Source of the DNA: a virus
Strand: one strand, 5' to 3'
Length of the DNA: 24,587 bases
Virus record (IMG/VR): IMGVR_UViG_3300040801_001242
Coordinates: 1 to 24,587 of that record
Under the pieces are notes generated by a model. That model did no database searches. It was not told the origin of the DNA and saw only the letters and a list, made by a program, of their open reading frames with translations. Both the position numbers and the translations under genes were made by a program. Positions 2,320-23,408 of the stretch are shown here, piece by piece (positions within the stretch are counted from its first letter, which is position 1; every line of letters starts with the position of its first letter).

Positions 2320-2672
2320 GGCTTGGTCACCTCAGGATCGACACGCACGCGGCCCTTCAGCAATCGAACGACGCGCCCGGTGGGGAACAATAGCTCCAAG
2401 TCATACACACCTCGCAGTCTTCCGGGAAGAGCTGCCGTCAGAGTTGCAGAGACCTCCACACTGACCACGCCGGTGAGCGCGTCGATCGTGATGCCGCCGA
2501 TGGTGTCGCTGTCGACACTGAGGAATGCCTCCTCGGAGTTGTGACGCTTTCGGATCATCATCCGGGCAAGAACGCCAGTCAGGTCAACCGGGTTGCCTCC
2601 GTCGGTCCATGTCGCGGTGAGCTCGAACGTCGCGCCCTGCTCGATCACGATGTTGTGTACTGCCGCACCCAT
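2316..2672 (-). CDS. Hypothetical phage structural protein, beta-sandwich-like (118 aa)
   Basis: A compact protein starting [16 protein letters not shown]. It has alternating hydrophobic strands, an early '[15 protein letters not shown]' segment and a late '[28 protein letters not shown]' pattern (quoted loosely). Proteins of this look sit just before fibre genes in many phages, and the layout resembles N-terminal baseplate or fibre adaptor domains with an Ig-like fold. That is a pattern-level guess, not a family identification. The start has a GAGGTG Shine-Dalgarno 5 bases upstream of ATG. The stop overlaps the fibre start by four bases, and the gap to the upstream giant gene is only four bases. 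A role in attaching or assembling the collagen-like fibre is therefore plausible. Confidence 0.75.
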
Positions 2673-2676
2673 GTCG

Positions 2677-8964: not shown

Positions 8965-8967
8965 GAG

Positions 8968-9648
8968 TTACTCCGTCGGCATGAGCAGCGGGTTTGGATT
9001 GCTGATCTGGGCAAGCATTTGCATGAACCTGTTGGCCCCGGCCGCGGCCTCCTCTACCGACGCGTTCGGCCCCTGCGACCTCAGGTACTCTCGCTGCGCG
9101 AAATCGAACATCGTCTGCTGTGCCTGCTCTACAGGGCTCAAGCTCGCAGGCGGCGCCGGCATGAGGCCTTGCAAGGCAGCAAGCTCCGCGACGTTGTACT
9201 GAGAGAGCTGCTGCATAGCGTTGGCCCTCACCTGCTCCGGCGTGAGTTGCGGTCGAGGCTGAGGTCGGGTCGTAGCAGCCGTAGCTGCAGCAGCTGCATC
9301 TGGCGCAGCCGTTTGACCACGTGCTGTCCGGGCCGCTGCAGGGCCGTTTGCCCGGATCGCTTCTGCTCGATTGAAGGCTGCCTCGGACGCATCAGTCGCA
9401 CCTGCCAGCCCTGCCACGGTGCCGAATATGTCCTGCCCCACTGCGGCCTGAGCCTGCCTCGCCTGAGGAGTTGACACTGCGTCGAGGTTGCGGATGCCGG
9501 GGATCATGGTCCGCAGCACCTGAGGAAGCACGCCGCTCAGAGCCTCCGAACGCGTTTGCGGGGCGGCTGCTGGGGCCGGCGGCCCCATGATGGGCGGCAT
9601 GGCCGACGATTGGCCGCGACGCTGACGTGTCTCGTTGTTTCCTGCCAT
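8968..9648 (-). CDS. Hypothetical Ala/Gln-rich phage structural protein (226 aa)
   Basis: The frame is open upstream to 9843, but the start at 9648 (MAGNNETRQ) is chosen. It has a GGGAGAGATG-type ribosome-binding site directly upstream and lies one base after the stop of the adaptor-like gene. The extra upstream residues are Arg/Trp/Cys-rich shadow of that gene. The protein is low complexity in the middle (runs of Ala, Pro, Gln), then has an amphipathic helical C-terminus ending near NPNPLLMPTE. No family is recognised. Its place between the adaptor-like gene and the 2095-residue protein suggests an internal virion or connector component, perhaps a chaperone or partner of the giant protein. 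Confidence 0.75.
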   Translation of the reverse strand: MAGNNETRQRRGQSSAMPPIMGPPAPAAAPQTRSEALSGVLPQVLRTMIPGIRNLDAVSTPQARQAQAAVGQDIFGTVAGLAGATDASEAAFNRAEAIRANGPAAARTARGQTAAPDAAAAATAATTRPQPRPQLTPEQVRANAMQQLSQYNVAELAALQGLMPAPPASLSPVEQAQQTMFDFAQREYLRSQGPNASVEEAAAGANRFMQMLAQISNPNPLLMPTE

Positions 9649-9649
9649 C

Positions 9650-10411
9650 TCATCTCTCCCAAGACCAGCCACGTTCCCCGAAGCCCGGGCGGCTAGGTGC
9701 GTGAAGTTTCCGCATGGAGGTCCTGCGGGCCAATCCGACCGTCGAACCGAACGATTTCTTGAAATCTTCTGCCCTACGCGGGCTACCCGCGTCAACGTCC
9801 ACGATCCGCAGCGCGAGGTACGCGGCCCAGTCCAGCATCTCAAGATGGTGGTGCTCGGGGACCTCCGGAACTGCCTCCAGATCGTCCGTGCTGAGGCGGT
9901 AGATCGGTTCCCGGATCACCCGGAGGCGGATCGTCTCTGCCTCGGCTGGGGTCGGGTAGATACGCATGGTCGTGACGCCCACGCTGCCCTCGTCGTCTTC
10001 GCTCAGACCTTCGTCAGTCTGGAACGCGAGCGCCGGGCCTTGCGGGAGGCCCACGATATTCTCACCCATGGAGGGCTGGACACCGGGGAGCTGGTAGCCG
10101 CCCACAGACGCGTGGCCGACACGGAGCAGGTCCCCGTTCTGCCCGTCCCGCCGCGCGGAGATAACTGCAAGCACCGCGGGGTGTAGGTCGTACTCAGCCT
10201 GCCCTGCGACTGTCTGCAGGACGCATGTCTCTTCGTTGCGGTGATCCCGAATGACGAAGCCCAGCCGCGCTAGGCGCCGCTGAGCTTCGTCGATGTATCG
10301 CACGAGCGTGGCATCGCTCCAGAGACGGTCGTTTCCGTCGCCCGCGACCTGATTGCTCCGGTCGTGCAGGATGTTGTGCCTCAGCTCGAAGAGCAGCTCG
10401 CCGACGTTCAT
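9650..10411 (-). CDS. Phage adaptor-like (head-to-tail connector) protein (253 aa)
   Basis: It begins MNVGELLFELRHNILHD, followed by a 'LWSDATLVRYIDEAQRRLARLG' type segment (given loosely), then 'AGQAEYDLHPAVLAV' and, near the C-terminus, 'LEMLDWAAYLALRI'. This order (N-terminal helix with W-S-D and Y-I-N/D-E-A-Q, then a beta strand with aG..eYdL) is the signature I associate with phage adaptor proteins that bridge portal and tail in short-tailed phages. Size is typical for that group. AAAGGTG precedes the ATG. The gene follows the small head proteins and precedes the ejection-type genes, which fits a connector role. The family call comes from pattern memory and has not been tested by a profile search. 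Confidence 0.7.
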   Translation of the reverse strand: MNVGELLFELRHNILHDRSNQVAGDGNDRLWSDATLVRYIDEAQRRLARLGFVIRDHRNEETCVLQTVAGQAEYDLHPAVLAVISARRDGQNGDLLRVGHASVGGYQLPGVQPSMGENIVGLPQGPALAFQTDEGLSEDDEGSVGVTTMRIYPTPAEAETIRLRVIREPIYRLSTDDLEAVPEVPEHHHLEMLDWAAYLALRIVDVDAGSPRRAEDFKKSFGSTVGLARRTSMRKLHAPSRPGFGERGWSWER

Positions 10412-10426
10412 GAGGCACCTTTCGCG

Positions 10427-10798
10427 TTAGACTTTGCGGAAAGGGTACTTCAACCGATCCCGATAGCCAATAACCTGTTTCGTCTGCTGGTCCACGACAG
10501 GGGCAGACATGACCGCGTTCTCGAGGATCTCCACGATCCCGGCCGGGACTGCGACCTTCTCGCCGGGGCGCAGAAGATACCCTCGACCATTCAAGCCCAA
10601 GAACAGACCGTTTGGGGGGATGTCGTCGTTCTCCTCAAGGAGGATGGTGACCCGGTCGTCCTTGGGCTTCGTGGTCCGCTTCGCCGCAGGCTTCTTCGCC
10701 GCAGGCTTCGCGTCGGCCTTGGCAGCCTTCTCCGGCTCGTCACCGTCGTCGGCGTCAGCGATGACCTCGTTTTTGATCGGCTCGTCTTCGTCAATCAT
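10427..10798 (-). CDS. Hypothetical head-region protein with charged Ala/Lys-rich N-terminus (123 aa)
   Basis: The first 25 residues are acidic, residues about 25-46 are Ala/Lys/Pro-rich (KPAAKKPAAKRTTK), and the remainder is a small globular domain with 'ILLEENDDIPPNGLFLG', 'GRGYLLRPGEKVAVP' and 'VIGYRDRLKYPFRKV'. The globular half resembles small proteins encoded beside capsid genes in related short-tailed phages; no function is known to me. The N-terminal linker suggests it tethers the domain to another virion part or to DNA. The start overlaps the end of the upstream gene by eight bases, so expression is probably coupled. Confidence 0.75.
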   Translation of the reverse strand: MIDEDEPIKNEVIADADDGDEPEKAAKADAKPAAKKPAAKRTTKPKDDRVTILLEENDDIPPNGLFLGLNGRGYLLRPGEKVAVPAGIVEILENAVMSAPVVDQQTKQVIGYRDRLKYPFRKV

Positions 10799-11066
10799 CG
10801 TCAGCTTCCTCTGTCATTGCCCGTGAAAATGCTGTGTCGTATTCGTCGCCCTTCGACAGCTTGTCCATGGCCTTGTCGAGGAACTTGAAGAGCTCCTCTT
10901 TCTCGGTAAAGACGAACTCGACATATGGACTGCGGTACGGCCCATCGGCCTTCGCATTCTGCTTCTCGATGTCGGGATCACGCATCTCGACAGTGTAGCC
11001 GTTGCCTGCGGCTTTAACCTTGATCTCGTCTGTCATGATCAGCATCCCCGGTACCGCTTCATCCAT
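10791..11066 (-). CDS. Hypothetical small phage protein (91 aa, start uncertain)
   Basis: The frame is open further upstream, but that part is Arg/Ser-rich shadow of the 103-residue gene. Two starts are credible. ATG at 11066 (MDEAVPG) has GGAGAG at good spacing. ATG at 11036 (MTDEIKVKAAG) has GGGGATG upstream and gives 81 residues with a more usual N-terminus. The body is highly charged, with 'GPYRSPYVEFVFTEKEELFKF' (a predicted strand then helix) and an acidic tail EEADDD. No family is recognised. It follows a terminator-like hairpin and overlaps the next gene by eight bases. Confidence 0.7.
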   Translation of the reverse strand: MDEAVPGMLIMTDEIKVKAAGNGYTVEMRDPDIEKQNAKADGPYRSPYVEFVFTEKEELFKFLDKAMDKLSKGDEYDTAFSRAMTEEADDD

Positions 11067-11080
11067 AAGGCTCTCCGTGG

Positions 11081-11101
11081 AAAAGGGGGCCGAAGCCCCC
11101 T
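11081..11101 (-). terminator. Hairpin with TTCG loop and T-tract after the 103-aa gene
   Basis: On the minus strand the stem GGGGGC / GCCCCC closes a TTCG tetraloop and is followed by TTTT. It starts six bases after the stop of the 103-residue gene. It looks like an intrinsic terminator, perhaps leaky because structural genes continue downstream. Confidence 0.75.
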
Positions 11102-11106
11102 GATCC

Positions 11107-11418
11107 TTAGCGCATCGCGACGAAGTGGAGGACCTTCGTGTCGATCGCGACACCTGCCGGGATCGTGAACCCGGTATCGGTGAACGTGATCGTGTCGGCC
11201 TGCACCGTCTGGGTGCCGGCAGCGACCTGACGAAGGGACGCACCAGCCATGGTATCGGTCGCCTCGTGGGTGATCGCGTCGGTTGCGTTGTACACCTTCA
11301 CGAAGCGCGGGCGGAAGCCCAGCTTCACGACGGTGACCGTGCCGTCCGCCGTGAAGGTGCCGGACATGATGTTCGCCATGTCGAAGGACCCGGCGTTGGC
11401 GTTTGCAGTGTAGTTCAT
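11107..11418 (-). CDS. Small capsid-associated (decoration-type) protein candidate (103 aa)
   Basis: This is a beta-rich, Thr/Ala/Val-rich protein starting MNYTANANAGSFD, with 'GFRPRFVKVYNATDAI' and 'TITFTDTGFTIPAG'. It lies directly downstream of the major capsid gene, separated by a hairpin, and is itself followed by a stronger hairpin with T-tract, so it forms its own small transcription unit with the capsid gene. Small beta-rich proteins in this position are often capsid decoration or head-fibre proteins; that role is inferred from position and composition. AAGGAA precedes the ATG by eight bases. Confidence 0.75.
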   Translation of the reverse strand: MNYTANANAGSFDMANIMSGTFTADGTVTVVKLGFRPRFVKVYNATDAITHEATDTMAGASLRQVAAGTQTVQADTITFTDTGFTIPAGVAIDTKVLHFVAMR

Positions 11419-11446
11419 GGTTCAGGTTCCTTTGCTGAGGGCAACT

Positions 11447-11466
11447 GAAAGGGGCCCGGAGGCCCC
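11447..11466 (-). terminator. Hairpin with TCCG loop after the major capsid gene
   Basis: On the minus strand the stem GGGGCC / GGCCCC closes a TCCG (UNCG-type) loop followed by TTT. It lies just downstream of the capsid stop. With a short T-tract it is likely to be a partial terminator or an mRNA-stabilising 3' hairpin. Confidence 0.6.
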
Positions 11467-11471
11467 TCCCG

Positions 11472-12503
11472 TTATGCGGTCGCCGTGCTTTCCAGACGAG
11501 CCATGAAGGCTTCCTGCAGGATGATGGTCCCGTTCCAGAACTTGTAACCCACGGTGCCACGCTGAGCGAGCGGGTCGCCTGCGGAGGGCTTGGGGTTCAC
11601 AACCATGGGGGTCATCGACGACTTGCCCTTGAGGGGCACCATGCCGAACGCGTCGCGGCCGAAGAACAGGATCGGGTAGACGTCGGCGTTCGTGCCGGTC
11701 GTGGACCGGTTGGCGCCTGCGGTGCCGCCTGCATCCGGCCACGGCTGCATGACCGTGGAGGTTAGGTAGCGGACCTGTTCGACCGAGCCGATCTCGCCTT
11801 CGAAGGGCGTGGTGTGGGGGCCGTAATCCGCGACCGGCTTGAAGCCAGCCATGGAGCGGATGTCGGTCTCCAGATCGGGGTGGCACACCGCCATGTACGC
11901 CGCCTCGACCGACTTGGTGTTGAAGTCGGGGGTGGACGCGACGACCGAAGAGATCTTCTTCGCGTTCTGGCGGTTCAGGCCGGTCGTGACGCGGCGCTGA
12001 TCTGCGAGCGAGATCGGAGCCACGACGTTCGCACGACCTGCCACGCCGTTGGCGTAGAAGACGTTCGTGCCGGCCTTCAGGACGTTGAAGCGCAGCGTCT
12101 CCAGCGTCAGTGCCGCGCTCTCGCCGAGCACGTCAGTCGACACACGCAGGACCGGATCGGTGTGCGTGTCCTCGATCACGTCGGTGATCGTGATGAAGTC
12201 GCCGTACTGCTGCAGCGTGATCGTGTAGTCCTGATTGGCCAGACGCGAGCCCTGCGGCGTGACGCCTTCGATCAGGGGCTCGATCCGAACCGGGATGTTG
12301 AAGGGCTCTGCAGGGTTGCCGGAACCAGCGGAACCGGTCGCACCGACGAGGAAGTACCGACGGAACTTCGCAGTCTGCGTGTTGTTCGTCGGCAGCTCAT
12401 AGGTCTGCCCGAATTTCTCGAGGCAGAGGTACGGCATGGCACGCTTGAGCATGCGAACGACCGAGTAGGCCGCGATTGCCGGGGAGATGTCACCATAGAT
12501 CAT
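11472..12503 (-). CDS. Major capsid protein, N4 gp56-like family (343 aa)
   Basis: This is the shell protein of the phage head. The N-terminus reads MIYGDISPAIAAYSVVRMLKRAMPYL, split here as MIYGDISPAIAA then 'MLKRAMPYLCLEKFGQ'. Then come 'FRRYFLV', 'IEPLIEGVTPQG', 'ITLQQYGDFITITDVIEDTH' and 'LRFNVLKAGTNVFYANG'. The order 'plteGvtP' followed by 'tl.QYG....tD' is typical of N4 gp56-family capsid proteins, and 343 residues fits the family range. TAGGAG precedes the ATG. The gene sits between the scaffold gene and a decoration candidate, the usual order. A hairpin follows the stop, which may help set high capsid expression. Confidence 0.88.
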   Translation of the reverse strand: MIYGDISPAIAAYSVVRMLKRAMPYLCLEKFGQTYELPTNNTQTAKFRRYFLVGATGSAGSGNPAEPFNIPVRIEPLIEGVTPQGSRLANQDYTITLQQYGDFITITDVIEDTHTDPVLRVSTDVLGESAALTLETLRFNVLKAGTNVFYANGVAGRANVVAPISLADQRRVTTGLNRQNAKKISSVVASTPDFNTKSVEAAYMAVCHPDLETDIRSMAGFKPVADYGPHTTPFEGEIGSVEQVRYLTSTVMQPWPDAGGTAGANRSTTGTNADVYPILFFGRDAFGMVPLKGKSSMTPMVVNPKPSAGDPLAQRGTVGYKFWNGTIILQEAFMARLESTATA

Positions 12504-12526
12504 GTTCTGCTCCTAGACCAAAATGA

Positions 12527-13555
12527 TCAGATTTTCTTCGCGAACTCCGCGAATGCCGCGTCGAAATCTGCCGGATCGGCAGACCCACTTGGCGTTGACC
12601 GTTTGGACCTGACTGGAGCCAGACCAGCCGCCGCTTTTTTGGTGGCTGCGGGCAGCTCAGTGTCCTGAGACTGTTGTTGTTGTTCGCCAGAAGAAGCCTT
12701 GGCCTTAGGCGCCTCGATACCGTTTTCCTTTCGATACCGCTCCACCAAGTCTGCAACTTCTTCTGCAGTCCCTTGAGTGATAACATGCTCATAAGCTGCC
12801 CGCAAGTAGGCAGGTTGTCCTTCGACCCACTGCACGACCTTATCGCGAACGTCATCATAGTCGGCGATCTGGGTCTGCAGCTGTTGCAGGTGCGCCTGAT
12901 TGGATATCACATCCACGGTCTCGCTGATCGGGTCAAGCACCTGCTTCACCTGCGAGAACACGAACTGGAGCAGCTGCTGGTACTCCTGACGACGCGACAA
13001 GGCCTCGGCTCGTGCGATGTCCGGCCAGTCGTTCCGGTAGGCCTCGAGCAGTTGCTCCTCTTCTGGAGTATAGAGGGGCTGCTGCTCCTGCTTTTCTTCC
13101 TTCGCGCCCTCGGCATCGGGCTGAGCCTTCGCGGGTGGATCTTTCTGTTGCTGTTGCTGGTGCTGCTCGGCCGACCCCTTGCCCAAAAGCTCGGACATCC
13201 GCGCGAGCAGCTCCTCGTTCGTCAGCGCAGGTTCTTCGGGAGGGGGAGTTTTCGCGGCGTCATCTTCCTTGCCGCCCTTCTCTCCTCCATCGCCAGCATC
13301 ACCAGTATCAGCATCAGGATCGTCCCCTGTACCAGCGTCAGCGTCTTCCCCGCCCTTCGCGGCCTCAGCAGCGGCAGCATCAGCTTCCTCCTCGGCAACA
13401 CCGGCTGCCGCGGCGGCAGCATCGGCATCATCCTCATCGCCGCCGTCACCGTCGCCCTGAGCGCTCTCAGCAGCGGCAGCCGCAGCAGCGTCATCATCCT
13501 TGGATGCCTGAGCGAAGGCGGCGTCGAAGTCGTCGGCTTTCGGTTTGGTGGTCAT
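12527..13555 (-). CDS. Capsid scaffolding protein candidate (342 aa)
   Basis: The N-terminal third is very acidic and low complexity (Ala, Asp, Glu, Gly runs). Next is a Gln-rich linker, a helical middle (about residues 155-265, with 'YTPEEEQLLEAYRNDWPDI'), then a Ser/Lys-rich tail. High charge, helical content and position immediately upstream of the major capsid gene are hallmarks of phage scaffolding proteins. The motif DFDAAFA occurs at both ends: residues 9-15 and again within the last 15 residues. This could be a duplicated capsid-binding element. GGAGAG precedes the ATG. The assignment rests on composition and context, since scaffold sequences are poorly conserved. Confidence 0.8.
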   Translation of the reverse strand: MTTKPKADDFDAAFAQASKDDDAAAAAAAESAQGDGDGGDEDDADAAAAAAGVAEEEADAAAAEAAKGGEDADAGTGDDPDADTGDAGDGGEKGGKEDDAAKTPPPEEPALTNEELLARMSELLGKGSAEQHQQQQQKDPPAKAQPDAEGAKEEKQEQQPLYTPEEEQLLEAYRNDWPDIARAEALSRRQEYQQLLQFVFSQVKQVLDPISETVDVISNQAHLQQLQTQIADYDDVRDKVVQWVEGQPAYLRAAYEHVITQGTAEEVADLVERYRKENGIEAPKAKASSGEQQQQSQDTELPAATKKAAAGLAPVRSKRSTPSGSADPADFDAAFAEFAKKI

Positions 13556-13567
13556 TGTGCTCTCCGG

Positions 13568-13828
13568 TTACTTCGCCAGTTGTTGTTTCAGATACTGGTC
13601 ATGTTTGTAAGCTGCACGCTCCAGCTTACGCAATATATTTCTGTAGACCAGTGCTTCGGCCTGAGTGCTCTGCAGTTTATCGGGAGAGCAAGTCACGAGA
13701 TCATCCTTGGCACCTTCAAGCAACGCCTCCATCCATTTACGGATAAGGATGATCTCAGGGGTGCCGAGGTACTTCCTGATCTGATCAAGAAGCTCCGCTT
13801 CCGTCTCCTTGGGGTTGCTGCTCGACAT
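13568..13828 (-). CDS. Hypothetical helical protein between portal and scaffold (86 aa)
   Basis: Predicted mostly alpha-helical: MSSSNPKETEAELLDQIRKY and then repeated Leu/Ile heptad-like positions, ending KHDQYLKQQLAK. The start lies 44 bases inside the portal gene's 3' end in another frame, and the stop is 12 bases before the scaffold start, so the three genes are tightly coupled. Codon pattern and the clean packing support a real gene. No family is recognised; small helical proteins at this locus in other phages are mostly of unknown function. Confidence 0.7.
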   Translation of the reverse strand: MSSSNPKETEAELLDQIRKYLGTPEIILIRKWMEALLEGAKDDLVTCSPDKLQSTQAEALVYRNILRKLERAAYKHDQYLKQQLAK

Positions 13829-15974
13829 CCGGCATTACTCCTCGCTCTAGCGCCTCCAGCGCTGTGTTGACCGTTTGGGCTTGGGCCGCGGTCATGCTCT
13901 TCTCGCCAAGGGCGATGTTCTTGGCCGCCTCGGTGAGGACGTTGCGCAGCTCTGCCTCGAACATCTGCTTGGCCTGTGCAGCCATCTCGGCCTGCTGCTG
14001 GTCCCGCGCCTTCCGACGACGCTCGGCTTCCTGCGGCGCCACCAGCAGCCCTTGGAGATCACGCACCGCGAACCGGGCCTCGGTGAATTTGCGGGTATCG
14101 ACGTCCAAGCGCTCGTCTTCTGTGAGGGTCGCCGCCAGCTGGTCCATCTGCTGACCCCGAACCTCCTTGGCGATGAGGCTGGTCGCGCCACGCGCTACCG
14201 CGTTGTAATCGCCCTTCGGCACCCGGGGGTTGAAGACCTGATTGAACGTGATCAGCGATTGTATGACCGACTGGGTGAAGGTGTCGAAGTTCCTGACTAC
14301 GTCCTTGAACGGCAGGGCCGCGTCAGCGCGCAGCATGCTCGCCCCGGCTGCCGTCCGCATGGGCTCCGCGGTCCCGCGCGGCGCCTCTTGGCCGGATTGC
14401 GGGTTCACGAAGGTCTCCTGATCGGCGAAGTCCATGAAGAGCCTGATGATCTGCAGCAGCTCCGGGATATGGCTGTCGACCGCGACGTTCCGCACCGCCG
14501 GGACGTTGGCATCCTGACCCACCCCTTCGCGGTAGTAGATCCGGTACGAGCCGATGCTGGTCGTGTCCTGATCAGGTCTGAGCAGGTCTTCGTTCATCTC
14601 AAGCGTCGGGCCACAGACCATCGACCCGTTGTCCAGCACCATCCGCGCCGCCGCGGCGATCGACATCTGGCTGTCGCGCATGACGGCCGGCAGCCCGCTG
14701 CCCACGAGGGTGGTGTCGTCCTCGTCGAACACGAACGTGTGGATGGTGCGGACCTCCTTGCCGAGCTTGCGCCACGCGTTGATGTCCGCCTTGATGATCT
14801 TGTTCCCGACCATCCAGATCTCGGCATCGACGTCGTCCGTGATCTTGTCGTTCGGCACCTCAGCACCTGCACGCTTCAGATCCTTGGCGCTGATCGTCCC
14901 GTGGTAGCAGATCACCTCGTACCGGTTACCGCCCGGCTTGAACGACCGCTCCTCGCCTGCGGTGATGTCGCGCAGGGAGTTCTCGAAGTTCTCCGGCTTG
15001 TAGTTGCCGTCCGGGTGCTGCTTGATCGCCGCCTTGACCTGATCCTCGAAGAAGTCCTCACGCCGCCCCAGCGCACGCAGCTGGGCCCGCGTCATGACCT
15101 TGCGCACCCAGTATCCTTCCATGTCTGCGAAACTCTTCGCGTTCATGTCCGGATAGAGGTCCCAGACCGAGATGAAGTCGAAATACGGCCTGTATGTGGT
15201 CTGCTCGCGAACGCGCGGCACGTCTCCCTCGACGTCCCATGTCGTGATCGTCGTCGGCTGCGCGAACGGGCCGTGCAGGAAGCCGGGGCCGTACATGATC
15301 CCGGACCGCAGAACCGACCGCACCAGCGCGATGAAGTCGGGGTTCTGGTCCCCGCCCATCTCCGCGAGCTGGTCCTCGATCTCGATCTCGAGCTCCCGGG
15401 CGCGCTCTTCCGCGATCTCCTGCACCGCGGCGCGCACCGTGGCAGCCGTGACCTTCGGCTTGGGCGGGCCTTGCATGGGCGGCATGCCCTGCTGTGGACC
15501 TTGCTGCTCGACCTGCTCTGGGCTGGCTTCTGCCTGCCCGGGGTCGCCCGGAGGCGCGACCGTGGCGTCCAGCATCGCGATCTCTTGCAGCTTCGCCATG
15601 ACATCCTCGGGCGTGATGTCCGCGGACGGGGTCGCCTTGATCTCCCAGTTCTTCTCGTTGCCCGGGAACATCAGGTTCATGAGCCGCGCGAGCGTCAGAA
15701 GTACCTTGACCCGCGTGATCCGCGGGTAAGCCTTTGACATGTTGGGAGGTAGTTTCTGCTCGATCTCCGGGTCGTACTTGCCTGCGAACTGGCGGAGGTT
15801 CTTGATGTAGTTCCGCTCCGCGTTCGAGCGGTCCTTCTTGTACTCCTCGAACATCTCCTTGAGCTTGGTCCCGATGATCGCCATCTCGGTCGGGTCGATC
15901 TTACGGACCGGGACGTCCTCGCCGGGACCGGCATCCACCGTAACGGGAGGCAGCTTCGGGTTCATCTGGTTCAT
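13785..15974 (-). CDS. Portal (head-tail connector) protein (729 aa)
   Basis: The portal ring at one capsid vertex forms the DNA channel and docks the terminase. The start at 15974 (MNQMNPKLPP) is preferred over the more upstream 16034, which would overlap the terminase gene; GTGAGG lies upstream. Visible segments include 'FEEYKKDRSNAERNYIKN', a Pro/Gln-rich linker (about residues 150-180), 'LRSGIMYGPGFLHGPF', 'FDFISVWDLYPDMNAKS', 'EGYWVRKVMTRAQLRAL' and a long helical C-terminal region ending in a Gln/Gly-rich tail. The order of the SVWDLYPD segment before the ARAL-type helix is typical of large portals of the N4 gp59 size class (about 750 residues). Its place directly after the large terminase supports this. 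Confidence 0.85.
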   Translation of the reverse strand: MNQMNPKLPPVTVDAGPGEDVPVRKIDPTEMAIIGTKLKEMFEEYKKDRSNAERNYIKNLRQFAGKYDPEIEQKLPPNMSKAYPRITRVKVLLTLARLMNLMFPGNEKNWEIKATPSADITPEDVMAKLQEIAMLDATVAPPGDPGQAEASPEQVEQQGPQQGMPPMQGPPKPKVTAATVRAAVQEIAEERARELEIEIEDQLAEMGGDQNPDFIALVRSVLRSGIMYGPGFLHGPFAQPTTITTWDVEGDVPRVREQTTYRPYFDFISVWDLYPDMNAKSFADMEGYWVRKVMTRAQLRALGRREDFFEDQVKAAIKQHPDGNYKPENFENSLRDITAGEERSFKPGGNRYEVICYHGTISAKDLKRAGAEVPNDKITDDVDAEIWMVGNKIIKADINAWRKLGKEVRTIHTFVFDEDDTTLVGSGLPAVMRDSQMSIAAAARMVLDNGSMVCGPTLEMNEDLLRPDQDTTSIGSYRIYYREGVGQDANVPAVRNVAVDSHIPELLQIIRLFMDFADQETFVNPQSGQEAPRGTAEPMRTAAGASMLRADAALPFKDVVRNFDTFTQSVIQSLITFNQVFNPRVPKGDYNAVARGATSLIAKEVRGQQMDQLAATLTEDERLDVDTRKFTEARFAVRDLQGLLVAPQEAERRRKARDQQQAEMAAQAKQMFEAELRNVLTEAAKNIALGEKSMTAAQAQTVNTALEALERGVMPDVEQQPQGDGSGAS

Positions 15975-15984
15975 GGCCTGTGCC

Positions 15985-17406
15985 TCACGTGAAGTGGTAA
16001 ACGTTCTGGAGCCGCGGGACCGTGCCAGTGGCACGTTTCTTCCGCCTTATCTCACGTTGCCCCTCGCGATGGAAGTACCGCGCCAGATAGCCCCCTGCGT
16101 CGCCGGGGTGAGAGTAGGGGTTCTTCTTGTCGGGCTCCGGCGATCTCTGGTTACCAGTTTTCGGGTCCAGTGCATAGCGCCAGCCGCCCCTGAGCGCCCT
16201 GAGAAAGATCGGACACGCCTGCTGGTCGACGATGAACGCGGGCTCCGACCCCACGATCCGGGTCATGTAGTGCTCCAGCGCGTCGATCCGGAGGGACAGC
16301 CGGTTATTGGTCTCGATCGAAACGTCGAAGTTCTGACGAAGTACCTCCAGCACGGTCTGCTCGTCCGAGTTGCTGCGGTAGCTGGATGCCGGGTCCGGCG
16401 CCACGATGAACTGCGCATCCGGGAATTTCGCCCTCAGGAACGGCTTGACCCGCTCGTCGATAAGCCGCCGCGCCCCCATGTTCTTCTGCACCAGCTCCCC
16501 GAGCACCCTCAGGCGCCCGTCGAGGGTCTGCTGGCCGAACACGAAGGCCGATCCGCCCAGCCCGGGGTCGAACCCTGCCACGAGAGGCAGCATCGGATCC
16601 CAGAGCAGCCTGTCCGCACTGACGTGCATGACCGGGTCGAAGCTCGGAACGACCGGCTGACCCACCACCGAGAAGCCCCACTGGGCCTCAAGGAACTGCG
16701 CGATGTAGGCTTTCGACTTCCCGATGGCCTGATTGACGTAATATTCCCGGCCGCCGGGCAGGTTCTCGATGTTTTCCGCGTCCGGAGCGAAGCCCGAGGG
16801 CTGCAGGAAGTACTCCGCATTGCCCGGCAGATCCTTGTGCAGGTAGTCGAACCACCAGTTGTCCTCTGTCGAGGGGTTGCTCGAGGCCCACATACCCCAA
16901 TTCGTCGCGCCGCCATCCTTCGCCGAGGGATAGCGCCCCAGACGAGAGGACAATGCGTCGATAATCGCCTGCGGGATCTCCACGAATTCGTCGATGATGG
17001 CGAACGTGATCTCCAGAGACAGCACGCGCGCGATGTCCGCAGGGGTGTCGAGCGCCCTGAACAGCACCTCGCACTCGACATCGTCGAACCGGAGCGTGAA
17101 TTTCTTCTCGGTCTCCTTCCACGTACCGGCCTGACCGTCCTTGAACCAGTAATCCCACGATTTCAACGTGGTATCCTTGAGCTGAGGCAGCGTGTTCCGC
17201 ACGACAACCGCCCGAGAGCGCCTGATCCCGTCTTTTCCGGGCTTCTGGAGCTTCGCCATGGCGACGAGCTTGAAGAAAATCCCGGTCGTCTTGCCCGATC
17301 CGACCGGCCCGACGATGAACGAGTAGAAAAGCTCACCCTTCCGGTGGTGCCGGATGAACCTCTTGATGGTCGGAGGCGGCGTATAGGTGATCTGCTCGTG
17401 CGTCAT
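15985..17406 (-). CDS. terL: Terminase large subunit (packaging ATPase-nuclease, 473 aa)
   Basis: This is the motor that pumps DNA into the prohead and cuts the concatemer. The Walker A motif GPVGSGKT is at residues 33-40. Walker B is FAIIDE at residues 135-140, with D139 and E140. ASSNPS (about 174-179) fits the coupling motif. The nuclease half begins near 'LVAGFDPGLGG', where D280 is a likely first metal-binding Asp, and continues with 'IVAPDPASS', a likely second acidic site. Length is normal for the family. The gene starts six bases after the small terminase stop, with GAGG upstream, and is followed ten bases later by the portal. Confidence 0.93.
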   Translation of the reverse strand: MTHEQITYTPPPTIKRFIRHHRKGELFYSFIVGPVGSGKTTGIFFKLVAMAKLQKPGKDGIRRSRAVVVRNTLPQLKDTTLKSWDYWFKDGQAGTWKETEKKFTLRFDDVECEVLFRALDTPADIARVLSLEITFAIIDEFVEIPQAIIDALSSRLGRYPSAKDGGATNWGMWASSNPSTEDNWWFDYLHKDLPGNAEYFLQPSGFAPDAENIENLPGGREYYVNQAIGKSKAYIAQFLEAQWGFSVVGQPVVPSFDPVMHVSADRLLWDPMLPLVAGFDPGLGGSAFVFGQQTLDGRLRVLGELVQKNMGARRLIDERVKPFLRAKFPDAQFIVAPDPASSYRSNSDEQTVLEVLRQNFDVSIETNNRLSLRIDALEHYMTRIVGSEPAFIVDQQACPIFLRALRGGWRYALDPKTGNQRSPEPDKKNPYSHPGDAGGYLARYFHREGQREIRRKKRATGTVPRLQNVYHFT

Positions 17407-17412
17407 GCAGCC

Positions 17413-17820
17413 TCAGAGGTTCACGGTGATGCTGAATGTAGGCCTGTCCTCGCCGGACGCGCCGCCATCCTTGCTGGCGTCCAGCCCGGCCACCCGCACG
17501 GTGAACTTGATCAGGTCAGCCCTGACCGTCGCCGGAACAGTCGGGTTGTGGATCATCCCCCACGAGGTCTTGAGCAGCTCGTCGGACTGGATCATGGCCT
17601 TGAGCCGGAAACTCATGCCCTCTCTGCGCACCAGCTCCCGGGCACGCCTCAGATCTTCGAGGAACGTTGGGTTCCGGCAGAGCGTTTCGAACTCGTGCTT
17701 CGTGATCCCGTAGGCTTCGCAGATCTTTTTTGGCGTCGCGATCCTCAGCGCCAGTTCAAGCGGGAGCGTCGCGGGGTAACCGAGGTCGATCTCGTGGTCG
17801 ATGGTGGCGACGGCGTTCAT
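17413..17820 (-). CDS. terS: Terminase small subunit candidate (135 aa)
   Basis: This is the probable DNA-recognition subunit of the packaging machine. Residues about 27-52, with 'TPKKICEAYGITKHEF', look like a helix-turn-helix. Then a helical region 'RRARELVRREGMSFRLKAM' and 'TVPATVRADLIKFTVRVAG' follows, consistent with an oligomerisation domain. The size and position immediately ahead of the large terminase are as expected. AAGGT precedes the ATG. The start codon overlaps the stop of a 28-codon upstream reading frame. The family call is from motif and context; small terminases diverge strongly. Confidence 0.75.
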   Translation of the reverse strand: MNAVATIDHEIDLGYPATLPLELALRIATPKKICEAYGITKHEFETLCRNPTFLEDLRRARELVRREGMSFRLKAMIQSDELLKTSWGMIHNPTVPATVRADLIKFTVRVAGLDASKDGGASGEDRPTFSITVNL

Positions 17821-17917: not shown

Positions 17918-18190
17918 GGCCGGTCGGATCGGCGGAAACAGATCGGGGACGGGAGTTGCGGGGGTTTGAGGAGTTTTGAAATGTTTAAAATCTAATTTGG
18001 GGAATTTTTTGCGCGGTGTGTGAGCAACACCCGAACTGGGGGACGGTGGTTTTTTGTTAAACCCCCCGGGTGGGGGTCCGGCTGAAAAATAAGGATGCTT
18101 ATTGGCATGGGGGGATCGGGTGCCGGGCAGGGGAGGGGATGCGCGCCACGCAACGCCACGCTGCAGGGGGAGAGATGCGCGCGGAAACGC

Positions 18191-18211
18191 GATATATCGC
18201 GGCGATATATC
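18191..18211. promoter_or_regulatory. 21-bp palindrome, copy 1
   Basis: Perfect arms GATATATCG and CGATATATC around CGG; the symmetry extends one more base on each side. It lies 134 bp before the 188-residue gene. Likely operator. Confidence 0.75.
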
Positions 18212-18300
18212 GAGATGCGAAACAGTGCGCGAAGATTGTTTCCGTCGCTCTGGTGCGCAAGGCCTTGCAAGCTGCGAAGATATGATTAGGTTGATTGTCA

Positions 18301-18323
18301 CCGGGTGGCGCGGTGCCACCCGG
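18301..18323 (+). promoter_or_regulatory. 5' leader hairpin before the 188-aa gene
   Basis: A perfect 9-bp stem CCGGGTGGC / GCCACCCGG with a 5-base loop, ending seven bases before the AAGGA ribosome-binding site. It could stabilise the mRNA or modulate translation. There is no T-tract, so it is not a normal terminator. Confidence 0.6.
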
Positions 18324-18345
18324 CATTACAAAGGACTAGAAAACT

Positions 18346-18912
18346 ATGGCTAAGCAAACCAAAGCTCCGATCAACGCTGAAACTCTCAATGCCTTCGCTC
18401 GCGTTGGCTTCGCCGGTGAAGTGGCGTTCGGAAAAGAGATTGAATTGATCAAAGCCAACGCGGTGAAAGGCAAGCTCGCACCCGCCTATTCGCTGGCATA
18501 CTGCGCCGGCGTGGTGTGCGCTAAGGCAGGCCTTGCGAACACGAAAGCCAATCGCGAGCTGGTCGTGAAGGAACGCGCCACGCGGAAAGACGACTGGGCA
18601 GCCGCACGCAACCGCCTGTCGCGCCGTGTCAAAGCCGCCGGCGTCCAGCCGGGCAACGCGAGCGGCCGCAAGCGTGGCACCAAGGTGGCACCGCCCAAGG
18701 CGACAGCCGAGGCACCGGCCGCCGGTGAAGGCACCATGCCCAAGTCGGTGACGCCGGCGGTGCCCACGCTGGTCAACGCGGCCGAGGTGATGGCCTACCT
18801 TGAAAGCAAGGTGGCGCAGATGCGGGCAGCGCAGAAGAAAAATGCCAAGCACTTCACGCTGAAACAGGCGGCCGCGCTGGACGCTTTTGCCGAGGCGATC
18901 AAGGCCGAGTGA
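18346..18912 (+). CDS. Unknown basic Ala/Lys-rich protein, paralog 1 (188 aa)
   Basis: It starts MAKQTKAPINAETLNAF, with AAGGA ten bases upstream. The first 85 residues are predicted helical, then a basic block NRLSRRVKAAG...NASGRKRG (residues about 89-111), an Ala/Pro/Thr linker and a helical C-terminus ending DAFAEAIKAE. It is a paralog of the 211-residue gene 467 bases downstream. They share the MAK start, the 'VVCA..GL..TKAN' segment and the basic block, which is also nearly identical at DNA level. The charged block and helices suggest nucleic-acid binding, but no known domain is recognised. It is the first gene of the rightward arm, preceded by a palindrome and hairpin and followed by a strong terminator, so it is a single-gene transcription unit likely to be made early and abundantly. 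Confidence 0.82.
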   Translation: MAKQTKAPINAETLNAFARVGFAGEVAFGKEIELIKANAVKGKLAPAYSLAYCAGVVCAKAGLANTKANRELVVKERATRKDDWAAARNRLSRRVKAAGVQPGNASGRKRGTKVAPPKATAEAPAAGEGTMPKSVTPAVPTLVNAAEVMAYLESKVAQMRAAQKKNAKHFTLKQAAALDAFAEAIKAE

Positions 18913-18932
18913 ACCACACCTGACTAGCTGCC

Positions 18933-18963
18933 AGCCCGGGCGAGAAATCGCCCGGGCTTTTTT
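18933..18963 (+). terminator. Intrinsic terminator after paralog 1
   Basis: An 11-bp perfect stem (AGCCCGGGCGA / TCGCCCGGGCT), GAAA tetraloop, and a run of T ending at 18963. The same design, plus the following GTGTCTGCA, recurs after paralog 2. Confidence 0.92.
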
Positions 18964-19018
18964 GTGTCTGCACGACAGGCAGCACCCGCGCACATGTGTG
19001 CGCCTTTTGTGCGTATGA

Positions 19019-19033
19019 CCGGGACCGTAGTCA
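19019..19033. repeat. 15-bp direct repeat CCGGGACCGTAGTCA, copy 1
   Basis: Identical to the copies at 19103-19117 and 19147-19161; the bases after it (TGCCG) also match copy 3. Function unknown; protein-binding iteron is the simplest reading. Confidence 0.7.
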
Positions 19034-19065
19034 TGCCGTCATCGCGACGCGACGATCAGGCCGCG

Positions 19066-19086
19066 GATATATCGCTGCGATATATC
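19066..19086. promoter_or_regulatory. 21-bp palindrome, copy 2
   Basis: Perfect arms around CTG. First member of the evenly spaced trio between the paralogs. Confidence 0.75.
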
Positions 19087-19102
19087 GAAACCGTGCATAG
19101 GA

Positions 19103-19117
19103 CCGGGACCGTAGTCA
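19103..19117. repeat. 15-bp direct repeat CCGGGACCGTAGTCA, copy 2
   Basis: Starts 84 bp after copy 1 (about eight helical turns), between palindromes 2 and 3. Confidence 0.7.
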
Positions 19118-19146
19118 CGCAGCGTGCAGGAGTTTGTCACATGTGG

Positions 19147-19161
19147 CCGGGACCGTAGTCA
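19147..19161. repeat. 15-bp direct repeat CCGGGACCGTAGTCA, copy 3
   Basis: Starts 44 bp after copy 2. It is followed by ATGCCG-like flank as in copy 1. Confidence 0.7.
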
Positions 19162-19198
19162 TGCCGCGCGCACAGGCCGCACACACCTGAGCAGCTCT

Positions 19199-19219
19199 GA
19201 TATATCGCGGCGATATATC
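19199..19219. promoter_or_regulatory. 21-bp palindrome, copy 3
   Basis: Perfect arms around CGG. It lies about 46 bp upstream of the candidate -35 box at 19265. Confidence 0.75.
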
Positions 19220-19264
19220 GGGGGATTGCCGATCTGAGATAGATTTTTAGATGTAAAAAACTTG

Positions 19265-19293
19265 TTGACTTAGATGGTGATATGTCGTAATCT
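19265..19293 (+). promoter_or_regulatory. Candidate sigma-70-type promoter for paralog 2
   Basis: TTGACT at 19265-19270 (five of six to consensus), 17-base spacer, TAATCT at 19288-19293, all in the most AT-rich stretch of this block. Palindromes 3 and 4 bracket it, which would suit repression or looping control. The -10 match is modest. Confidence 0.5.
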
Positions 19294-19302
19294 ATACATA
19301 GT

Positions 19303-19319
19303 CGAGGGATTGGCCCTCG
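19303..19319 (+). promoter_or_regulatory. Small 5' leader hairpin before paralog 2
   Basis: A 6-bp perfect stem CGAGGG / CCCTCG with a 5-base loop, just downstream of the candidate -10. It parallels the leader hairpin of paralog 1. Confidence 0.45.
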
Positions 19320-19333
19320 GCGCAACCCCGGCC

Positions 19334-19354
19334 GATATATCGCGACGATATATC
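19334..19354. promoter_or_regulatory. 21-bp palindrome, copy 4
   Basis: Perfect arms around CGA. It ends 25 bases before the ATG of paralog 2 and falls in the expected 5' leader, so it could act on DNA as an operator or in RNA as a hairpin. Confidence 0.75.
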
Positions 19355-19379
19355 CGCCAAACTACAAGGAACTGACACA

Positions 19380-20015
19380 ATGGCTAAATTTGAAATCGAC
19401 GCCGCGAAGCTCAACACTCTCTCGAAAGCCGCATACGCGGGTGAGAAGAGCTTCGCCGATGAGGTCGAAGCGCTGAAAGCGGTCGCGGTCGGTGGCGCGA
19501 TCCCGAAGCCCTACGCGGACGCGTATAAGACCGCTGTCGTCTGCGCCGCGCTCGGGCTCACCCGGACGAAGGCGAACCTTGCAGAGGCCGCCAAGCCTGA
19601 GCACAAGGATCTGCGCGCCATGGCCGCAAACCGCCTGTCGCGCCGCGTGAAGGCTGCAGGGATCAAGGCCGCCAACGCGTCGGGCCGCAAGCGCGGCGCC
19701 AAGGTCTCGACCGGCACGCCTGCGCCCACGGCTCCCGCGCCTCAGACCATCGTCGGGCGGACCATCGTCAAAGGTGGCAAGAAGGTGCAGGCCGAGGCCG
19801 CGAAGGCAACTTTCGGCGGCATGTCCGTCCCGCAGCTGTCCACAACTGAGCAGCTCGACGACATGCTGTCCGGCATGATCGCCTTCGTCCGCGCCACGAT
19901 GACCGCGAACCCGGACGCTGTCGACGACACGAACCGCGCCGCGGCGATGCAGCTGACCGCGGCGGTCGAGAACCTGCGCCGCACCCGCGCCGAGCAGGAG
20001 GAGCCGAACCACTAA
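19380..20015 (+). CDS. Unknown basic Ala-rich protein, paralog 2 (211 aa)
   Basis: It starts MAKFEIDAAKLNTLSKAAYA, with AAGGA nine bases upstream. Layout matches the 188-residue paralog: a helical N-terminal region with 'AVVCAALGLTRTKANL', a basic block NRLSRRVKAAG...NASGRKRG (residues about 84-106), then a Pro/Thr linker. The C-terminal part differs and has 'STTEQLDDMLSGMIAFVRAT' and a polar end QEEPNH. The shared block is the best conserved part, so it is the likely functional core. Its high positive charge suggests DNA or RNA contact. The gene is bounded by palindrome copies 4 and 5 and ends in a strong terminator, again a one-gene unit. No known family is recognised. Confidence 0.82.
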   Translation: MAKFEIDAAKLNTLSKAAYAGEKSFADEVEALKAVAVGGAIPKPYADAYKTAVVCAALGLTRTKANLAEAAKPEHKDLRAMAANRLSRRVKAAGIKAANASGRKRGAKVSTGTPAPTAPAPQTIVGRTIVKGGKKVQAEAAKATFGGMSVPQLSTTEQLDDMLSGMIAFVRATMTANPDAVDDTNRAAAMQLTAAVENLRRTRAEQEEPNH

Positions 20016-20036
20016 TCACACACATCCGAAGATCTA

Positions 20037-20069
20037 AGCCCGCGCAGCGAAAGTTGCGCGGGCTTTTTT
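20037..20069 (+). terminator. Intrinsic terminator after paralog 2
   Basis: Stem AGCCCGCGCA / TGCGCGGGCT extends through G-T and C-G pairs to a GAAA loop, then TTTTTT. The following GTGTCTGCA matches the sequence after the paralog 1 terminator, so the terminator was copied with the gene. Confidence 0.92.
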
Positions 20070-20097
20070 GTGTCTGCAGATCAGGCCCGCGCGGCCC

Positions 20098-20118
20098 GAT
20101 ATATCGCGGCGATATATG
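20098..20118. promoter_or_regulatory. 21-bp palindrome, copy 5
   Basis: Arms GATATATCG and CGATATATG (last base changed) around CGG, 29 bases after the paralog 2 terminator. Confidence 0.7.
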
Positions 20119-22010: not shown

Positions 22011-22031
22011 CATATATCGCGGCGATATATA
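22011..22031. promoter_or_regulatory. 21-bp palindrome, copy 6, joined to a ribosome-binding site
   Basis: Arms CATATATCG and CGATATATA around CGG (8-bp perfect core arms; outer base of each arm changed). Its last base is the first A of AGGAG, the Shine-Dalgarno of the next gene, so binding of a protein or folding of the RNA would affect initiation directly. Confidence 0.7.
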
Positions 22032-22041
22032 GGAGAACGAG

Positions 22042-22416
22042 ATGCCACGTAAGGGTAGAAGCATGGAGACGTTGCGCAACCGGGTGCTGGAGGCGCGGCT
22101 GGTCGAGGGGGAGGCGGAGGCGCGGCTTGAGCGGGCCCGGAGAGACCGGGAGCGGGTCGTGCTGGACTACAACCACGTCGTCATGCGGGAGTACGGTCTC
22201 CGCGACGGAACGTTGGTGCGGGCCAAGCGCTACTCGTTCGACACGGCTTTGACTGTAGGCTACGTCGAGGGCATGTCTCGCACGGAGCTCGACCGCGTCA
22301 TGATCAGTGAGATCGGCAAGACCGGCAAGCGCATCAGCTCATCTGTGGCGTTCTCGGTCAGGATCGAGGATGTTGAGATCGTGGACAACACGAGGAGTGT
22401 GGCCGATGCCCTTTGA
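22042..22416 (+). CDS. Hypothetical protein with N-terminal coiled coil (124 aa)
   Basis: Starts MPRKGRSMETLRNRVLEARL, with AGGAG six bases before ATG. Residues about 9-45 are a charged helix with heptad spacing (EGEAEARLERARRDRERVVL). Then 'REYGLRDGTLVRAKRYSFDT' and 'TGKRISSSVAFSVRIEDVEI' form a small beta-rich domain. No family recognised. Its initiation region abuts palindrome 6, and its 3' end overlaps the next gene by 11 bases. Confidence 0.75.
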   Translation: MPRKGRSMETLRNRVLEARLVEGEAEARLERARRDRERVVLDYNHVVMREYGLRDGTLVRAKRYSFDTALTVGYVEGMSRTELDRVMISEIGKTGKRISSSVAFSVRIEDVEIVDNTRSVADAL

Positions 22417-22702
22417 CGAGCAGATCCCCGAGGGCGGCGGTGACGGGGGTGGCGACGATCCCGAGAAAGTTGCGAAGATCGTGCAGGCTGCCCTCATCCA
22501 GACGCAGGCGAATATCGAGCTCAGCGGCGTGTGCCCGCTGCACACCCGGCTCGACGTCATCATGGCCATGTGCATGGAGCTGATCACCAACATCCGTCTC
22601 TGTCGCAAGGACGACAGCTACACGGGAAACTTCGACGAGGCAGCCAAGCAAGGCCTGCTTGACCTCGTGAAGCGCGTCATGGAGGAGCTGGACGATGACT
22701 GA
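22406..22702 (+). CDS. Hypothetical small phage protein (98 aa)
   Basis: The start at 22406 (MPFDEQIPEGGG) is chosen because GAGGAG lies eight bases upstream; a longer open frame upstream is Arg/Ser-rich shadow. The first 20 residues are acidic and Gly-rich. The rest is helical: 'DPEKVAKIVQAALIQTQANI', 'CPLHTRLDVIMAMCMELITN' and 'DEAAKQGLLDLVKRVMEELD'. No family recognised. It overlaps both neighbours, so the chain is probably translated together. Confidence 0.75.
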   Translation: MPFDEQIPEGGGDGGGDDPEKVAKIVQAALIQTQANIELSGVCPLHTRLDVIMAMCMELITNIRLCRKDDSYTGNFDEAAKQGLLDLVKRVMEELDDD

Positions 22703-23408
22703 CCTAGAACAACGTGCAAACGACGAAGCCAGACACGGCAACCGTGAGGCTTTGGAGCAGATGACCGCCCGTCTGGCCGAGATGGAACGTGACCTGAAGT
22801 CGGTGTTGGATCGGGAAGCTGCGACGACAGCCCGGTATGACGCCCGTCTGGCCGAGATGGAACGTGAGCGGGACGAGGCCCGCGCACGGGTGGAAGAGCT
22901 GGAAGCTGCAATAGACAGCGAACACGCGGATGTGGGCCATAACATCTGGCGGTTCTGGCGCGATCAGGCGCGGGAAACGGCGGAAAGAAACAAGGAACTG
23001 CGCGTACTGGCAGCGGCACGGACGGAGGAAACGGCGGAACTTATCTCTGCAATGGCCGACCGCATCGAGGCTCTGGAGGCGGCGCTGGCCGAGGTGAAAA
23101 AAGAACGGGACGAGGCCCGCGCTCTGGCGGCGGTAAGGACGGAGGAAGCAGCATCCTTGATGGTAGAGGGCAGGGCATACGCTGTTGAAGAATACGGCGA
23201 GCGCAGTCTGATCGTCATGGATATGGACGCGCGACGTGACGCCATCCTCGCCCTCGCCACCGACGAAGAGACCGACACGCTGGACAGGATCAGGTCGGAG
23301 GCAATCGAGGTCGCGCGGCGGGCAGTCTGCGACGCTCTGAATGGGTCGCAGGAAGCCGAGCGCTTGTGCGATGCGATCGACGCCGCCACCCGGAAGGACA
23401 AGACATGA
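22695..23408 (+). CDS. Long coiled-coil protein (237 aa)
   Basis: ATG at 22695 overlaps the previous stop region by eight bases, with GGAGGAG upstream. About residues 5-75 and 95-150 are strongly predicted coiled coil (MTARLAEMERDLKSVLDREA; ALAEVKKERDEARALAAVRT), broken by 'HADVGHNIWRFWRDQ' near residue 80. A 27-bp unit encoding ARLAEMER is repeated exactly 75 bp apart (22766-22792, 22841-22867), and ERDEARA occurs twice, so the coil grew by duplication. The C-terminal 60 residues are a charged helical domain. No enzyme motif is seen. A scaffold or partner-binding role is inferred from structure only. Confidence 0.78.
   Translation: MTDLEQRANDEARHGNREALEQMTARLAEMERDLKSVLDREAATTARYDARLAEMERERDEARARVEELEAAIDSEHADVGHNIWRFWRDQARETAERNKELRVLAAARTEETAELISAMADRIEALEAALAEVKKERDEARALAAVRTEEAASLMVEGRAYAVEEYGERSLIVMDMDARRDAILALATDEETDTLDRIRSEAIEVARRAVCDALNGSQEAERLCDAIDAATRKDKT

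Follow-up and report, generated by a model that had tools for sequence, protein, structure and literature searches.

Lineage-specific palindromes at early gene starts in a clade of uncultured tailed phages, and the protein family encoded by their first early gene

The stretch analysed here (the window) is IMG/VR virus record IMGVR_UViG_3300040801_001242, 24,587 bases from a tailed phage whose structural genes run leftward and whose early block runs rightward from TerS. At the head of the early block stand two similar genes, A and B, and short palindromes lie upstream of both, which raises the question of whether these palindromes belong to the two genes or to a larger system, and of what recognises them. 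The comparison with related phages showed that each lineage repeats a palindrome of its own in the early region, with many copies just before gene starts. The explanation that we favour, with moderate confidence, is that A and B are duplicates of the gene that opens the early block, and that they belong to an early regulon that carries palindromic operators for a dimeric, phage-encoded regulator, with repression exerted in the leader.

BLASTP aligns genes A and B over 118 residues that include the NRLSRRVKAAG...NASGRKRG block, with 50% identity (E 6e-29). This similarity implies homology, so that on sequence grounds the two are paralogues, and the duplication proposed in an earlier note on this DNA is borne out. 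RNA folding also supported the note's description of two single-gene units with leader hairpins and separate GAAA-loop terminators that end in GTGTCTGCA; the terminator hairpin of gene A (18933-18958) has a folding energy of -25.0 kcal/mol (z -5.2) and that of gene B (20036-20065) one of -26.5 kcal/mol (z -5.7). The C-termini have diverged, as the note held, yet a distant C-terminal helical hairpin can still be aligned in the wider family. The closest relative, a 20-kb contig (L002), has an A orthologue (65% identical) and shares the palindrome, the leader and the terminator. Identity between the window and L002 is 93% from the palindrome to the start codon, 72% in gene A and 85% in TerS, which indicates that the leader is more strongly constrained than the gene. 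In L002, the hairpin in the gene A leader keeps one pair through a two-sided change (T-A to C-G) and has one pair broken.

The window palindrome, GATATATCGCNGCGATATATC, has the form GATATATCG-N3-CGATATATC and occurs seven times between 18191 and 23598, where shuffled sequences gave a chance expectation of 0. Four copies are perfect, the one at 19334 having the centre GA, and three carry one or two mismatches; positions 1-17820, the structural side, hold none. The earlier note was thus right in placing palindromes upstream of both genes; they are not confined to the cassette pair that it described, since copies extend to 23578-23598 and a whole early regulon is marked.

A terminase-based search recovered 55 related contigs, and more in later rounds. 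A scan of 2.9 million viral contigs with the window's own palindrome was set aside: it returned 19 contigs, about the estimated chance number, and only the two relatives already known were informative. The clade consists of uncultured phages of 50-66 kb, and core structural and replication genes are common to 15 records that were read completely or almost completely. Its nearest named phage by TerL (45%) is Pseudomonas phage Rollin, which has a repeated AGGTAG-N7-CTACCT near one end and a different gene order. A repeated palindrome of its own, in 5 to 16 copies, is present in each of thirteen further relatives that are near-complete or large, for example TTTGTGAC-N4-GTCACAAA (16 copies, G003), TGTGACACGTGTCACA (11 copies, G005), GTCAGA-N3-TCTGAC (13 copies, G008), TCTGGGTAGCTACCCAGA (10 copies, G017) and GTTACA-N3-TGTAAC (11 copies, G014). 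In all, about 30 contigs carry their own palindrome, with 3 to 16 copies per early region; G018 has six sites, and its first early gene was not found in the record. The half-sites mostly follow a TTTGnnAC-like pattern, from which that of the window is an outlier. Where no significant palindrome was seen, the contig mostly includes little sequence upstream.

The placement of the sites is closely tied to gene starts. Among 130 sites in 14 genomes, 79 have a start codon preceded by a Shine-Dalgarno (SD) sequence within 70 nt downstream, compared with 25 expected, and the distance from site to start peaks sharply at 15-30 nt. The early strand has few strong sigma-70-like promoters (31 in all), 16 of which have a palindrome site nearby; relative to these promoters the sites fall at +32 to +66, except that the site nearest TerS falls at -46 to -73. 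Only five of the 130 sites lie inside open reading frame (ORF) calls on the late strand, although such ORFs cover 48% of bases, and the calls in question are probably spurious ORFs in the early block.

Sites within leaders, 15-30 nt before starts, could also be RNA hairpins in early 5' leaders that serve mRNA stabilisation, processing or translational control. Many of them can fold with loops of 3-5 nt (a window copy at -10.1 kcal/mol), and in one lineage (G011) the length of the spacer varies, as this alternative allows. We consider it unlikely, because among the pairs that deviate on the transcript strand, in sites with at most two mismatches, there were 12 G-U, 21 A-C and 18 other pairs, with only four compensated changes. 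The lack of a G-U excess favours recognition of DNA over an RNA hairpin. In addition, the half-site sequence is fixed inside each phage, the arms of some lineages are short and AU-rich (TGTTAA-N4-TTAACA), and the first sites, being upstream of promoters, are not part of the transcript. The palindromes are thus probably recognised as DNA.

The genes that carry a palindrome at their start are the same in different phages: a MoxR AAA gene in 7 of 10 cases, group 27 in 5 of 8 and group 20, which encodes a 287-aa protein, in 5 of 11. No palindrome stands at the start of any gene of replication groups 13-19, of DNA polymerase or of any structural group. Taken together, the shared marked genes and the unmarked structural and replication groups indicate that the sites mark one class of early genes. 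Such constancy, with the tight placement relative to starts and promoters, would not be expected if the sites were elements of recombination or replication (cassette boundaries or iterons) that had no direct role in transcription. We regard that explanation as highly improbable, even though the early region is variable in gene content, G003 has tandem repeats with palindromes, and the repeats of cluster O mycobacteriophages show deletions between copies (PMC4351075). Several relatives (G005, G003 and others, L077-L124) have a conserved early module that consists of a MoxR-type AAA ATPase, a DUF2201 VWA/metallopeptidase-like protein and the 287-aa protein, often with a palindrome at its start.

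These properties fit the operator explanation stated at the outset. In it, the A and B units, each composed of a leader hairpin, a ribosome site, a single gene and an intrinsic terminator, belong to a regulon whose early genes would each be equipped with a palindromic operator in the leader. This palindrome would most likely be the DNA site of a dimeric, phage-encoded regulator; bound between promoter and start codon, this regulator would stop or slow RNA polymerase, and its accumulation would turn the early genes down. We infer that a protein binds the sites, that the phage encodes it and that its effect is repression.

Repeated operators in an early region could instead belong to a classical temperate immunity repressor that maintains the prophage, in the manner of stoperators. 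The early block has many lineage-specific sites in its short intergenic regions, which recalls cluster A mycobacteriophages (PMC9283540, PMC6550527). Nevertheless, a search of 25 records detected no tyrosine integrase, and in 16 records neither a serine recombinase nor a ParA-type ATPase was detected, although the control genomes gave the expected signals; because many of the records are incomplete and several are fragments, this absence is evidence, short of proof. Among 84,980 bacterial species genomes there was a single match, a contig of a metagenome-assembled genome (L126), which has its own palindrome and a weak A-type match (E 0.12), and no repressor family shared among the relatives was found. 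The clade therefore appears to be virulent, and an immunity repressor is a very unlikely owner of the sites.

A second source of the binding activity might be a transcription factor of the host, recruited by the phage for early timing. The sites of G003 and G005, TGTGA-N6-TCACA, fit the CRP consensus, and the hosts are probably diverse. Most lineages, on the other hand, depart from CRP-type spacing, with N7 or other half-sites. From one related phage to another the palindromes change only slightly (CGTCAGAT, TGTCAGGT, TGTCGGAT), and the similarity of the motifs tracks that of the terminases (r 0.42), which makes a host factor quite unlikely. Because the site takes a different form in each phage lineage, the regulator and its operators appear to change together, and under the operator explanation they would do so lineage by lineage, with a specificity that resembles immunity but involves no lysogeny.

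In one relative after another, the gene that opens the early block, divergent from TerS, codes for an A-type protein. The members share a layout of a helical N-domain, a basic block (GRKRG, GGKR or GGAR), an Ala/Lys/Pro linker and C-terminal helices. When hidden Markov model profiles were built with the clade of each member left out, 17 of 23 members ranked first among 1,207 unrelated ORFs, and the top background match was itself the first early gene of another relative (G020). The six members missed (G011, G015, G016, G017, L056 and L069) are assigned by position and composition only. On new contigs, the A profile found members at the predicted place in most cases, with E down to about 1e-26. 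The window, G003 and G005 have two A copies each, and within each of these three the pair is closer to itself than to the A proteins of any other lineage. Two copies are present also in L134, L147 and L193, which makes at least five lineages besides the window; from these pairs, duplication of the A gene probably happened repeatedly. In 24 of 39 cases a terminator lies within 150 nt downstream of the first early gene, compared with 1.3% in the background. Across lineages, the T-tracts of these terminators are often followed by GTGTCTGC- or GTGCCTGC-like sequence.

Searches of A, B and their relatives against Pfam, PHROG and the sequences of the PDB gave no match. Pfam showed nothing beyond weak hits that stayed far below its cut-offs, such as UvrC_RNaseH_dom (E 0.018, 15.4 of 22.3 bits), and in PHROG a single hit (E 0.009) appeared among 23 family members. 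By sequence, cultured and named phages had no match to A or B. The A family is therefore a new and widespread phage protein family, absent from Pfam and PHROGs, that stands first in the early programme. An AlphaFold2 model of gene A (mean predicted local distance difference test score, pLDDT, 84.5) has helices at 11-38, 46-61, 67-75, 81-97, 145-165 and 172-187, which form an N-terminal four-helix domain (11-97) and a C-terminal two-helix hairpin (145-187), with the basic block (about 105-114) and a low-confidence linker between them; the N-domain modelled alone reached a pLDDT of 78.6. The top Foldseek match of the model was the DNA-binding domain of DnaA, which was not significant (E 0.8-1.1), and the top VIA-align match was AppA SCHIC (Z 5.8, root-mean-square deviation 3.9, 79 residues aligned), within the chance range for helical models. 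The helix pair 46-61 and 67-75, as read by eye in the model, could be a helix-turn-helix.

The association of this family with a palindrome, which the earlier note had suggested looking for in other phages, recurs in the relatives. The further possibility raised there, that A and B bind the palindrome, fared less well, since profile and structure searches identified no known DNA-binding family and near-identical palindromes occur with very different A proteins. For the note's other suggestions, a nucleoid-like coat or anti-host factors, no specific support emerged from the analysis. A remains a putative binder, and a tentative one, by virtue of its four-helix N-domain and basic block and of being first in the regulon; it is the sole family with no recognisable enzymatic or structural role that occupies one place in nearly every early block. 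The binder could otherwise be some other protein of the phage or, with lower probability, one of the host. A stronger version, in which A, fast-evolving and often duplicated, is itself the dimeric regulator and the operators shift in step with it in each lineage, giving an immunity-like specificity without lysogeny, is in our view doubtful; if true, it would bring about a shut-off of the phage itself and of superinfecting phages like it.

Two other kinds of binder were considered for the clade as a whole and rejected. HTH_3 domains were above the cut-off in only two relatives and weak in a few others. The two, G008 (7598-8422; L087) and G010 (43562-44380; L093), encode related proteins of 272-274 aa in the early block with a C-terminal HTH_3, and these are candidate regulators in those two lineages, whose palindromes are alike. 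HTH_ParB was above the cut-off only in G011, in a ParB-like protein (22666-23514, minus strand; L096) that is unique to G011 among the phages searched. In the window, a 65-aa ORF at 24380-24577 (plus strand) contains a Fis-type helix-turn-helix just under the Pfam cut-off (E 1.4e-4) and is a possible further candidate for binding the palindrome.

Several observations weigh against regulation of early genes from these sites, or against A as the regulator. The window and many of the relatives are fragments. In the window, no sigma-70 promoter on the early strand reaches 9 of 12, and only two of the seven palindrome sites directly precede an SD start. The spacer in G011 varies by one base, which is unusual for the site of a rigid dimer. 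A and B match no DNA-binding family, and structure searches with the full model of A and with its N-domain gave no confident fold. Finally, G003, G005 and L139 have nearly the same palindrome and A proteins that are barely similar, and the similarity of A proteins was not significantly correlated with that of the motifs after terminase relatedness was removed (partial Mantel test, partial r 0.11, p 0.075).

Similar arrangements are known in other phages. The cluster O mycobacteriophage Corndog has more than 30 copies of a 17-bp repeat of unknown function, TGTTCGG-N3-CCGAACA (PMC4351075). Like the sites described here, this repeat is a short perfect palindrome with a variable centre (3 nt in Corndog) in many copies, and it was suggested to be the site of a dimeric regulator; unlike them, the Corndog repeats are not closely linked to starts, a third lie inside genes and most lie away from promoters (PMC4351075). 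One sequence serves the whole of cluster O, whereas in the present clade the sites are associated with starts and promoters and their sequence changes with the lineage; none of the roughly 30 contigs has the Corndog sequence as its repeated palindrome. The stoperators of cluster A (L5) are asymmetric 13-mers, oriented with transcription and bound by a monomeric repressor in temperate phages (PMC9283540). They share with our sites their number, their location in short intergenic regions and their lineage-specific recognition (PMC9283540), but the sites here are palindromic and no integrase was found with them. In cluster K, start-associated sequences (SAS) and their extended form (ESAS) lie immediately before the starts of some of the genes, and 17-bp inverted repeats accompany half of them (PMC3203893). 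Their location matches the peak seen in our clade, but the SAS is an asymmetric 13-mer, GGGATAGGAGCCC, at the start site, whereas our sites are palindromes of other sequences, and the cluster K inverted repeats are imperfect with a longer, variable spacer (PMC3203893). The clade's system shares some features with each of these three and fails others, and is a variant and not a member of any of them.

Palindromic operators for a global regulator, repeated through an early region or replicon, are also found in the conserved inverted repeats (CIRs) of the Streptomyces phage phiC31 and in the KorA and KorB operators of RK2. Those systems differ in having regulators of known families. The known examples of phages with many dispersed operators come mainly from temperate actinophages, and the palindromic repeats of Corndog and the start-associated repeats of cluster K still lack an explanation. 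Here, a clade with no cultured member found to carry an A protein shifts its operator sequence from one lineage to the next, yet its sites keep their positions and mark the same genes. It offers a natural data set for studying joint changes of specificity in a regulator and some ten operators, and it supplies compact operator sets with many different specificities.

Table 1. Features of the two cassettes and copies of the palindrome in the window
Feature	Position	Strand	Remarks
Palindrome copy 1, CGATATATCGCGGCGATATATCG	18190-18212		about 135 nt upstream of gene A; perfectly conserved in L002
Leader hairpin, gene A	18301-18323	+	9-bp stem, 5-nt loop; -20.2 kcal/mol, z -2.9 (RNA folding)
Ribosome-binding sequence AAAGGA, gene A	18330-18335	+	read from sequence
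Gene A	18346-18912	+	188 aa; first early gene of the phage
Intrinsic terminator, gene A	18933-18966	+	GAAA loop, T-tract, then GTGTCTGCA
GGGACCGTAGTCAYGC, three copies between the cassettes	19021, 19105, 19149 (span 19021-19166)	+	0.03 expected
Palindrome copy 2	19066-19086		perfect
Palindrome copy 3	19199-19219		perfect
Leader hairpin, gene B	19301-19321	+	8-bp stem, 5-nt loop; -14.5 kcal/mol, z -3.4 (RNA folding)
Palindrome copy 4	19334-19354		gene B leader, 25 nt before ATG
Ribosome-binding sequence AAGGAA, gene B	19366-19371	+	read from sequence
Gene B	19380-20015	+	211 aa; paralogue of A
Intrinsic terminator, gene B	20036-20071	+	GAAA loop, T-tract, then GTGTCTGCA
Palindrome copy 5	20098-20118		one mismatch
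Palindrome copy 6	22011-22031		two mismatches; about 11 nt before the start of a 124-aa gene at 22042
Palindrome copy 7	23578-23598		one mismatch; within a 157-aa ORF, 23366-23839

Further elements of the window can be described briefly. A very long collagen-like ORF of tail-fibre type with GPQGPAGP repeats occupies 1-2319 on the minus strand and runs off the record. A 48-codon ORF (MRATQRHAAGGEMRAETRYIAAIYRDAKQCAKIVSVALVRKALQAAKI; 18139-18285, plus strand) runs across palindrome copy 1, and its frame is likewise open in L002, where its 3' half differs by two synonymous changes and one A-to-V change and nothing more; it may code for a small protein expressed early, or regulation may explain the conservation. 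The element GGKACnGTAGT has five copies on the plus strand of the window (19021, 19105, 19149, 20158 and 20881), four in G003, five in G016 and two in L031. In the window, G003 and G016 it occurs on the early strand only, and it is possibly a promoter or binding element.

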